Part shown: piece after piece, positions 13,649-17,195 of the stretch | Position numbering within the stretch: position 1 is the stretch's first letter | How the letters are laid out: each line of letters begins with the position of its first letter | Source: Cetobacterium sp. 8H | GTDB lineage: Bacteria; Fusobacteriota; Fusobacteriia; Fusobacteriales; Fusobacteriaceae | Direction: 5' to 3' | Length of the DNA stretch: 64,000 nucleotides | Assembly: GCF_014250675.1 (NCBI RefSeq) | Contig: NZ_JACHTG010000003.1 | Span: forward strand, 186,001 to 250,000 | Position numbers and translations under genes: made by a program | The notes under the pieces: generated by a model | The model's input: the letters and a program-made list of their open reading frames with translations, nothing else | The model's database searches: none | Told to the model about the DNA's origin: nothing

Positions 13649-16300
13649 TTAAAGCAATTCTCCGTGTCTTTTTATAAACCATTTTTTTAATAAAGTTACA
13701 AGAACAATATAAAGGAAAATAGTTATTGCTAAAAATGGAAAATAAACAAAAGGTAGGGCCATCATACCAAGATTTGTACCCAGACTTGTAAATGGAATAA
13801 TTGTTCCAACCAAAATTCCTAAAGTAGTCAATATCGACAATGTCCAAGAAGCTCTACTTTGAATAAACGGTATTTTAGGCGTTCTAATCATATGAATTAC
13901 AAGTGTTTGTGACCAAAGAGACTCCACAAACCATCCAGCATTAAATAGGGCTATAAATCCAACCTGTTGGCTCTCATTTAACGTATTAAAGCTTCCACCA
14001 AAAACCATAGGACAAATAATAAAATACATTACACCAAATGTTGTGATATCAAATACCGAACTAGAAGGTCCTATAGAAATCATAAACTTTTTAATAGATG
14101 ATGCATCCCATTTTCTAGGAATTTTTAAAAATTCTTCATCAACATTATCCCAAGGAATACCTATACAAGATAAATCATATATTAAATTTAACATTAATAT
14201 CTGTATAGGATACATAGGAAGAAATGGTAAAAATGCACTAGCCACAAGAACAGAAAACATATTTCCAAAATTAGAGCTCGCTGTCATTTTAATATATTTT
14301 ATTATGTTTCCATAAATTTTTCTTCCTTCTATGATTCCCTCTTCTAAAACCATAAGATCTTTTTCTAATAAAATAATATCAGCTGATTCTTTAGCTATAT
14401 CTACAGCTCCATCTACAGAGATTCCAACATCAGCTTCTTTCATAGCTGGAGCATCATTTATACCATCTCCCATAAATCCTACAATATGACCATTTTCTCT
14501 AAGAGTTTTAACTATCATTGTCTTTTGATTAGGAGAAAGTTTTGCAAAAATATTAACTTTTTCCACAATAATTTTAAGCTCTTCAAAAGACATCTTCTCA
14601 ATATCAGAACCCAAAATAATATTATTAGAATCTAACCCAACTTGATTACAAATACAACTAGTTACGATATCATTATCTCCAGTTAATATTTTCACATTAA
14701 CATTATACTCCAACAAAGTTTCAATTGCCTTTTTAGTACTTTGTTTAGGCGGATCTAAAAAAGCCAAGTAACCTATTAAAACCATTTCAGCTTCATCAGC
14801 TATCGAGCACTCTTTCTTCTTAATATTTTTTTGAGAAACACCTAAAATTCTAAGCCCTTTACTATTGTATGATCTTACTTTTTCCAAAATCTCTTTTTTT
14901 ATTTCGTCTGTTAAAGGTTCTATATTCCCTTTATATTCAACAAAAGTCGAAACAGATATCATCTCTTCTATGGCACCTTTAGTTATCAACTGAGTTTTTC
15001 CTTTAAGATCTTCAATCAATACACTCATACGACGACGACTAAAATCAAATGGAATCTCATCTATTTTTGTATAATCTTTAGATAAACTCTTTAAATCCTC
15101 TTCTTGAGAGTGATTTATTATAGCAATATCTATCAAATTTTTTAAGCCTGTCTGATAAAAACTATTTAAAAAAGCATGACGTAGGACACGCTTATCTTCA
15201 TTTCCCTCAATATCTAGATAATGTTCTAGTACTATTTTATCTTCTGTAAGTGTTCCAGTTTTATCTGTACAAAGAACATCAATAGCACCAAAGTCCTGTA
15301 TAGAATTCAAATTTTTAACAATAACCTTCTTTTTAGCCATTTTTGCTGCACCTTTAGCAAGGTTCGCTGAAACGATCATTGGTAACATTTCAGGTGTTAA
15401 ACCGACAGCTATTGAAAGTGCAAATAAGAACGCTTCAAACCAGTCTCCTTTAATTAATCCGTTAATCATAAAAATAAAAGGAACCATAAAAATCATAAAA
15501 GTTATCAAAACTTTCGAAACAGAATTCACTCCTTTATCAAAACTAGTTATAACTTTTTTATTATTCAATTGCTTTGCTATTCCACCGAGAATTGTGTCAT
15601 CTCCAACAGCAATAACTACACCAATAGCTGAACCACTGATAACATTACTTCCCATAAAAACTAGATTACTAGATTCTAGTATAGATAAGTCCGAAGTATT
15701 TTCAAAAGAAAATTTTTCTACAGCATCACTTTCTCCAGTTAGAGAAGATTGGCTTATGAATAGATCTTTTGCTTGGACTATCCTTATATCAGCAGGAACA
15801 ATGTCTCCTGCTGTAAAATAGATTATGTCTCCTACGACAATTTCATCAACTGGAATTTCTTTTTTTTCATTTTTATATCTTTTGATAGAAGCTGTTGTTT
15901 CAACCATTTCATTTAATTTTTCTACTGCATTACTCGAACGTTTTTCTTGAATAAAACGTAACAGTCCACTAACTAAAACCATTGTACTTATTATAATAAC
16001 TCCTGTAAATTCTTTCTCACCTGGCTCAGCTAAACTGATATCTGTAACAAAAGAAACAAAAGCTAAAATAAACAGTATTATTGTAAATGGATTAACAAAA
16101 GCTTCGATAAACTTTTTAAAAGTAGATACTTTCTTTTGTTCAGTAATACTATTCCTTCCAAATTTTTCTCTCATATCCAAAACTAAATTTTGATCATATC
16201 CCTCAAAAGATGTGTTTAATGTTGAAAGAATCTCTTCTTTAGTGGCAGCCATAGCCCACTTAAGTCTGTCATTAGTATTTTTTAATATAGATTTCTTCAT
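13649..16300 (-). CDS. mgtA: Magnesium-importing P-type ATPase
   Basis: P-type (type IIIB) ATPase that brings Mg2+ into the cytoplasm. The 883-residue length is normal. The actuator loop SLTGES is at 186-191, the membrane-embedded VGLTPEMLP at 299-307, the phosphorylated Asp is residue 346 in CTDKTGT, and LTGDN and GDGINDAPA follow in the P domain; about ten membrane helices. AGGAGG lies 9 bases before the ATG. It is controlled by an upstream M-box riboswitch with a terminator, then a short leader ORF and a long-range hairpin, all on the same strand (16331-16750). High intracellular Mg2+ should switch it off. Confidence 0.96.
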
Positions 16301-16330
16301 TTTAATTCCTCCTCGATTTCTTTTTTGAAA

Positions 16331-16450
16331 TAGAGAAGTACTAATTTATATTAGGCGAGTTTAAAAAAGAGCAGCGTTCGAAAATCTTCGATAATAAAAC
16401 TATGCCCAAATTTGTGTTCAAAATATAATAAAACCATAGTACTTCTCCTA
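16331..16450 (-). promoter_or_regulatory. Long-range hairpin spanning the mgtA leader ORF
   Basis: TAGAGAAGTACTA at 16331-16343 is complementary to the segment TAGTACTTCTCCTA at 16437-16450 with one bulged base. In the RNA, codons 8-13 of the leader ORF form the 5' arm and the 3' arm ends about 15 bases before the mgtA ribosome site. A ribosome on the early leader ORF would prevent pairing. The pairing is seen; the control role is inferred. Confidence 0.6.
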
Positions 16451-16473
16451 CTATCTCCGACTCCTACGTCCAT
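16351..16473 (-). CDS. Putative 40-residue leader peptide of mgtA
   Basis: Short ORF between the M-box terminator and mgtA. It has a near-perfect ribosome site AGGAGGTG at 16481-16488, 7 bases before the ATG, much stronger than chance would give. The product begins MDVGVGDSRRSTM, continues with VLLYFEHKFGHSF and ends LLFFKLA. It has no signal-peptide pattern. Its early codons (GDSRRST) coincide with the 5' arm of a long-range hairpin whose other arm precedes mgtA. By analogy with the Salmonella mgtL leader it may sense a translational state, but the sequence is unrelated to MgtL as far as I can see, and the role is inference. Confidence 0.6.
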   Translation of the reverse strand: MDVGVGDSRRSTMVLLYFEHKFGHSFIIEDFRTLLFFKLA

Positions 16474-16507
16474 TCTTTTCCACCTCCTAAAAATTTAATA
16501 AAAAAAA

Positions 16508-16535
16508 TCCCTTGTAGCTTATTAGCAACAAGGGA
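16508..16535 (-). terminator. M-box expression-platform terminator
   Basis: Minus-strand hairpin TCCCTTGT / ACAAGGGA followed by seven Ts (16501-16507), directly after the M-box aptamer. Expected to form when Mg2+ is bound, ending transcription before mgtA. Confidence 0.85.
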
Positions 16536-16561
16536 AAATAATACAATAAAAAAATTCCTTT

Positions 16562-16712
16562 ATTACCGTTCAAGCTTTAACTTCACAGGGCAATGAAATT
16601 ACATTATTCTACGCCTTGAATTCGACGTAGACTGTTAACCATCTCATAGTGTCTCCACTATTTCGCGGCAGCAACCCGTATCCCTGTGGTAGCCTCACCT
16701 ACCAGTATCATA
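16562..16712 (-). ncRNA. M-box (ykoK) magnesium riboswitch
   Basis: On the minus strand the leader carries the M-box hallmarks in order: GGTAGGTGAGGCTACC (near 16690-16705), GGGATACGGGTTGCTGCCGC (near 16668-16687, matching the GGA-TACGC-TGCTGCC core), a CACTATGAGATGGTTAACAG segment and a 3' side ending AAGCTTGAACGG. It sits between a promoter and an intrinsic terminator upstream of mgtA, the classic arrangement for Mg2+-sensing control. Boundaries are approximate. Confidence 0.92.
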
Positions 16713-16721
16713 TTTTTCTAC

Positions 16722-16750
16722 AGAATACTCTAAATAAATTTATTTGTCAA
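16722..16750 (-). promoter_or_regulatory. Sigma-70-type promoter for the mgtA leader
   Basis: -35 TTGACA (16745-16750) and -10 TATTCT (16722-16727) with a 17-base spacer, ending about 10 bases before the M-box. The -35 lies just downstream of, and touches, the stop codon region of elaA. Confidence 0.75.
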
Positions 16751-17195
16751 TTCTTTTTTTTAGAGTCATATCAACATGTGGTATATTATCTTCCAAATAA
16801 ACTTCGGAAATACTCTCAAACCCAAATGTTTCATAAAAGTTTTTCAAATAATTTTGAGCTCCAATAGTTATAGCTTTTTCATTTAACTCATTAAAAATAT
16901 AGTTTATACCAATTTGGACAATTTTTTTAGCAAGACCTTTCCCACGAGCAATTTTTGAAACAAGAACTCTTCCTAAAGAACTATCTGAGTAAGATACTCC
17001 TGGTTTTAAAACTCTTATATATGATAGAATTTGATTCTCTTCTTCCAAAAATATATGAATACATTCATAATCTTTATCATCTAAATCATTATATGGACAG
17101 TTTTGTTCAACAACAAAAATTTCAGCTCTAAGTTTTAAAATTTCATAAAGCTCTCTTGTTGAAAGTTCATTAAATCTCTTTATTTTTAAATTCAT
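16740..17195 (-). CDS. elaA: GNAT family N-acetyltransferase, ElaA-like
   Basis: Small cytoplasmic acyl-CoA-dependent acetyltransferase, 151 residues. It carries the ElaA signature RAEIFVVEQNCPYNDLDDKD (residues 23-42) and the acetyl-CoA pyrophosphate loop RVLVSKIARGKGLAKKIV (about 76-93), then NYLKNFYETFGF in the last strand-helix unit. Family length is about 150. Substrate unknown. Preceded by AAAGGTGGT. Its end overlaps the mgtA leader promoter, so readthrough from elaA would also pass through the M-box. Confidence 0.88.
   Translation of the reverse strand: MNLKIKRFNELSTRELYEILKLRAEIFVVEQNCPYNDLDDKDYECIHIFLEEENQILSYIRVLKPGVSYSDSSLGRVLVSKIARGKGLAKKIVQIGINYIFNELNEKAITIGAQNYLKNFYETFGFESISEVYLEDNIPHVDMTLKKRIDK

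Follow-up and report, generated by a model that had tools for sequence, protein, structure and literature searches.

The leader of mgtA in the window (the whole 64,000-nucleotide stretch of Cetobacterium sp. 8H DNA that was analysed) combines an M-box riboswitch and its terminator with a 40-codon upstream open reading frame (uORF) and an RNA switch, which bears out the three-layer arrangement proposed in an earlier sequence-only reading. The uORF layer is probably a second, ribosome-based Mg2+ sensor in series with the M-box, like the Salmonella mgtQ/MgtL systems. This interpretation is based on the mgtL and mgtQ precedents, and on the finding that the acidic residues of the uORF peptide lie where a ribosome must pause, in the folding calculations, for the mgtA Shine-Dalgarno (SD) sequence to open. 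The elements follow each other on the minus strand, from the promoter-like element through M-box, terminator and uORF to mgtA:

16722-16750, minus strand: likely promoter, TTGACA-17-TATTCT (consensus scan), 9 nt upstream of the M-box
16558-16713, minus strand: M-box Mg2+ riboswitch aptamer (RF00380, 99.7 bits, cut-off 44)
16500-16535, minus strand: intrinsic terminator, the M-box expression platform (12-nt arms and a T-run; inverted repeat and folds)
16481-16488, minus strand: uORF SD, AGGAGGTG (sequence)
16351-16473, minus strand: uORF of 40 codons, MDVGVGDSRRSTMVLLYFEHKFGHSFIIEDFRTLLFFKLA, with acidic codons 2 and 7 (open reading frame; conserved in Cetobacterium, with uORFs of the same type in other Fusobacteriota and in Bacillota)
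16437-16447, minus strand: arm A, GAGAAGTACTA, uORF codons 9-13 (Arg-Arg-Ser-Thr) (inverted repeat, folds and comparison)
16333-16343, minus strand: arm B, TAGTACTTCTC, the predicted anti-SD and partner of A or C (inverted repeat and folds)
16309-16338, minus strand: B:C hairpin, CUUCUC-U-AUUUC-A6-GAAAU-C-GAGGAG, predicted to hide the mgtA SD (minimum free energy structures of the naked and codon-11 states)
16308-16314, minus strand: arm C, the mgtA SD GAGGAGG (sequence)
13649-16300, minus strand: mgtA, magnesium-translocating P-type ATPase of 883 aa (TIGR01524, 1153 bits)

The terminator hairpin spans 16535-16508 and is followed by 8 T; its position ahead of the coding region is as expected for the expression platform of RF00380, and layer one is an ordinary member of this (ykoK-type) family, in which transcription is halted at the terminator in high Mg2+. 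The uORF layer is additional to the family and also occurs without an M-box. The uORF has the almost perfect ribosome site that had been noticed before (AGGAGGUG, 7 nt 5' of its ATG), and no Rfam element matched over it. A TTGACA and a -10-like hexamer are present at the equivalent site in congeneric leaders; in the window, the -35 element overlaps the 3' end of an upstream acetyltransferase-like gene (16740-17195, minus strand). The MgtA protein of a Cetobacterium genus mate is 89% identical to that of the window. A second mgtA-like gene in the genome of the window (G000:C3:154449-157013, about 45 kb away, 50% identical) has a leader without M-box or uORF.

Arm A (GAGAAGUACUA, 16447-16437) and arm B (UAGUACUUCUC, 16343-16333) form 11 contiguous Watson-Crick pairs and one G.U pair over a spacing of 93 nt, so that the long-range hairpin of the sequence-only reading is real and its spacing of about 90 bases correct, its 13 paired bases being slightly high. 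The CUUCUC segment of arm B also complements the GAGGAG of the mgtA SD and, with the AUUUC/GAAAU stem, forms a single hairpin (16338-16309). According to the folding, the A:B state (SD free) and the B:C state (SD locked) are mutually exclusive. The purine-rich Arg/Lys codons at arm A resemble an SD sequence, which may be what lets A mimic C. The A:B pairing is kept in four other M-box-bearing Cetobacterium leaders; in one of these (L004), GUACC/GGUAC takes the place of GUACU/AGUAC, a C-G pair replacing a U-A pair, and in another (L005) the pairing includes one G.U. This conservation, the C-G for U-A replacement and the failure of all 30 shuffled window leaders to switch argue that the pairing is not due to chance. 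A second intrinsic terminator at the B:C hairpin was also considered and ruled out, the T-run being absent 3' of the hairpin.

For a series of ribosome positions on the uORF, each with a footprint of 30 nt, the energy cost of freeing the mgtA SD was calculated, the folding being at equilibrium rather than co-transcriptional. In the window leader, this cost is 8.5 kcal/mol without a ribosome (closed), 0.7-1.1 kcal/mol when codons 1-4 occupy the P-site and 8.3-9 kcal/mol when codons 6-21 do (0.7 at codon 3 versus 8.8 at codon 10). Translation of the uORF is predicted to be coupled to mgtA, as had been suggested, but the simple model in which a ribosome in the uORF opens the A:B hairpin and thereby switches mgtA on is rejected: arm B would then be free to pair with the SD of mgtA, and opening is predicted to lock the gene. 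Nor would any position in the uORF do, the predicted opening position being codons 1-4, at the onset of the acidic residues. Over the 39 leaders that were folded, chosen partly for their acidic start, the median cost is 2.4 kcal/mol at codon 3 and 7.7 kcal/mol at codon 10; in 36 of them the difference exceeds 1 kcal/mol and opening is cheaper at codon 3, and the opposite is seen in none.

The effect is lost on dinucleotide shuffling (mean difference 4.65 kcal/mol for the real sequences versus -0.85 for the shuffled ones, Wilcoxon p 7e-12; 33/39 leaders at P<=0.1, with L006, L010, L013, L014, L050 and L118 not above their shuffles). It is also lost on synonymous-codon shuffling, which keeps the peptide (5.65 versus -0.11 kcal/mol; 27/27 leaders at P<=0.1, these 27 having been picked from the leaders already showing the effect), and this indicates a constraint on the RNA over and above that on the peptide. 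For the window leader, 0/30 shuffles of either kind reproduce the switching. The switching is robust to the footprint size; the real-sequence control pairs of uORF and gene (n=5) are too few to weigh. A model in which the untranslated leader is the on state is not general, the naked RNA being closed in the window leader and open in L044, L045 and L072.

The proposed mechanism has two layers. In the first, the M-box would stop transcription at its terminator in high Mg2+. In the second, the read-through transcripts would carry the acidic-start uORF and the three-segment switch A/B/C. During smooth passage of the ribosome, arm A would be covered, B would pair with C, and mgtA would stay untranslated. 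In low Mg2+, ribosomes would pause or drop off at the early acidic codons (1-5), and a ribosome paused there would keep the uORF start from pairing and leave A free; free A could then capture B, exposing the SD for translation of mgtA. In this scheme, the uORF is presumably translated in the cell, low Mg2+ would be its signal by analogy with the enterobacterial systems, and the folding predicts the direction of control, with an early pause turning mgtA on. The second signal anticipated by the sequence-only reading would be added by the uORF layer and is most likely Mg2+ again, acting through ribosome stability. It has been shown that the early acidic codons of MgtL (EPDP) destabilise ribosomes in low Mg2+ (PMC11282234), and that Asp2 and Glu5 of mgtQ raise MgtB translation via an alternative stem freeing its ribosome binding site (RBS) (PMC8092293). 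As the naked window leader is closed in the folding model, mgtA expression is expected to fall rather than rise when the uORF is no longer initiated; for mgtQ, loss of uORF initiation is reported to lower expression of the pump (PMC8092293).

When 98 Fusobacteriota genomes were searched with the RF00380 profile, M-box/mgtA leaders were found 18 times, in three genera; all 18 have an SD-led uORF between terminator and mgtA, whereas it is found in 0/12 leaders of M-box-less mgtA paralogues of the same family. Nor is there one in the leader L043/L046 (G090:C1:2726594-2726983), whose tandem M-boxes, each with a terminator-like hairpin, stand before a gene other than mgtA that encodes a membrane protein of 230 aa, MgtC/SapB-like in appearance. 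When 80 further mgtA loci were compared, nearly all from other phyla, a profile-detectable M-box was present in only 9, most of which also have a uORF; a uORF of the type MDSDGSPRRxR occurs in many of the 80, and many Bacillota mgtA leaders carry a uORF, mostly without M-box. Altogether, 51/98 mgtA leaders have an SD-led uORF versus at most 16/334 other genes of the same loci, the latter being an upper bound since some of the 334 are second mgtA copies. In several Lachnospiraceae loci (L051-L127), the mgtA leaders often follow the end of a response regulator or a small membrane protein (YISKSxRYR), which suggests a recurring gene order around mgtA.

The uORF peptides belong to the groups MDVGVGDSRRST and MEGDVQSSRRST in Cetobacterium, MDVENSGSS and MDTGNSNSTD in a second genus and MPEEPSxNIEHRR in a third, called Sebaldella-like. 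Nearly all that the peptides share is an acidic start (MDVGVGD, MEGDV, MDVEN, MPEEP, MDSDGSP). With the best SD-led uORF of each leader picked blind to its sequence and similar peptides then removed, residue 2 is D/E in 21 of 25 non-redundant uORFs (ordinary proteins 9%, p 9e-19; as the leaders are related, this and the other p-values overstate independence), and positions 2-8 hold on average 1.96 acidic residues versus 0.59 in ordinary proteins. Position 4 is acidic in 29/39 leaders of the folding set, and basic residues cluster at positions 8-13, the site of arm A. No protein-family match was found for the uORF peptide, and searches of phages and plasmids with it gave no match. The sole match in these phage and plasmid searches is an M-box, an annotated riboswitch of Streptococcus phage MissG2 (OL774866.1:5138-5271) that is 78% identical to the window M-box.

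It is possible, though unlikely, that the uORF mediates ordinary translational attenuation by a cue other than Mg2+, such as amino-acid/tRNA shortage or an antibiotic, with a stall at or before codons 1-5 acting through the same A/B/C switch. The switch reads the position of the ribosome alone, whatever the cause of the pause, and is compatible with such a cue; the peptides, however, contain no single-codon run or known stalling motif, all that they have in common is acidic residues near the start, and the gene under control encodes a Mg2+ pump.

Rather less likely still is a simple coupling, in which a ribosome that has reached the end of the uORF either breaks up arm B or re-initiates on mgtA, raising output without sensing. 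The uORF stop is 7 nt from arm B, the SD of the window leader becomes partly open again with a ribosome near codons 30-36, and a stop-bound ribosome opens the SD in many Bacillota leaders. In the window leader, however, opening the SD still costs 5-6 kcal/mol with the ribosome at the stop, 50 nt separate the uORF stop from the mgtA start, and simple coupling explains neither the acidic start nor arm A. Late pausing at codons 30-36 could, on the folding model, act as well. Very improbable is a functional small protein, for example a regulator of MgtA, which would fit dN < dS in most close pairs but is at odds with the lack of a family match, with the RNA constraint on synonymous positions and with the comparison between genera, where only the N-terminus is common and the length (24 to 41 aa in Fusobacteriota) and C-terminus vary freely.

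Among the closest known systems is mgtQ-mgtB of the Salmonella mgtCBRU operon (PMC8092293), with its short uORF, strong SD and acidic early codons (2 and 5), its alternative stems, an off state in which the RBS of the pump is masked, and the translational control of a Mg2+ P-type ATPase. In the window, mutually exclusive stems, one of which hides the pump RBS, are likewise computed to be set by the position of the uORF ribosome, and the acidic residues (D2 and D7; mostly 2 and 4 in relatives) are near those of mgtQ. The difference is that mgtQ is intergenic, between mgtC and mgtB, has 8 codons and uses a four-segment 1:2/2:3/3:4 wiring, whereas the window uORF (24-41 codons in relatives) lies in the 5' leader of mgtA behind an M-box and has three essential segments, arm A within the uORF pairing directly with the anti-SD.

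The MgtL leader of E. coli and Salmonella (PMC11282234) shares with the window a uORF directly before mgtA and an acidic N-terminus (MEPDPTPLPRRR) followed by basic residues, but it acts on Rho-dependent transcription and has no M-box. Put through the same folding calculation, the mgtA SD of E. coli shows no switching (7.0 kcal/mol at codons 1-3 and 7.2 at codon 10), which fits the transcriptional mechanism of mgtL. The parallel with Salmonella mgtL drawn in the sequence-only reading thus holds functionally, while the wiring, with release of an RBS, is nearer to mgtQ-mgtB; the peptide was called different, and the remainder of its sequence is, but its acidic N-terminus is common to MgtL and MgtQ. 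The window peptide (MDVGVGD) is only mildly acidic, without the proline of MgtL and its EPDP-type motif; near-EPDP starts are seen in the Sebaldella-like genus (MPEEPS) and in some Bacillota (MDPDG). The Mg_sensor model (RF01056, Salmonella mgtA leader) gave no covariance-model match even at E up to 5. In the M. tuberculosis pe20 leader, as far as the accessible text of the report goes (PMC12810186), the uORF (rv1805A) is likewise 3' of an M-box, which acts on it via a translational platform and Rho ahead of another gene, and an acidic-start switch does not figure in that part of the description.

The enterobacterial MgtL and MgtQ are known to sense Mg2+ through acidic codons that destabilise the ribosome, and by analogy the same principle would here be used in a different and simple RNA circuit. 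On balance, the acidic-start mgtA uORFs of Fusobacteriota, Bacillota and Actinomycetota, with or without M-box, seem to form a widespread, unnamed class of ribosome-based Mg2+ sensors, in which only a ribosome at codons 1-4 exposes the pump RBS; a literature search, with most subscription journals outside its coverage, found no report of this class. The predictions are specific as to codons, bases and direction, and can be tested at once. If the proposal is true, the same logic before mgtA in distant phyla would be a general bacterial strategy, and in the window leader one ion would be sensed twice on a single transcript, by an RNA aptamer and by a ribosome, which would make it a clear-cut case in which to ask what cells need the two sensors for.
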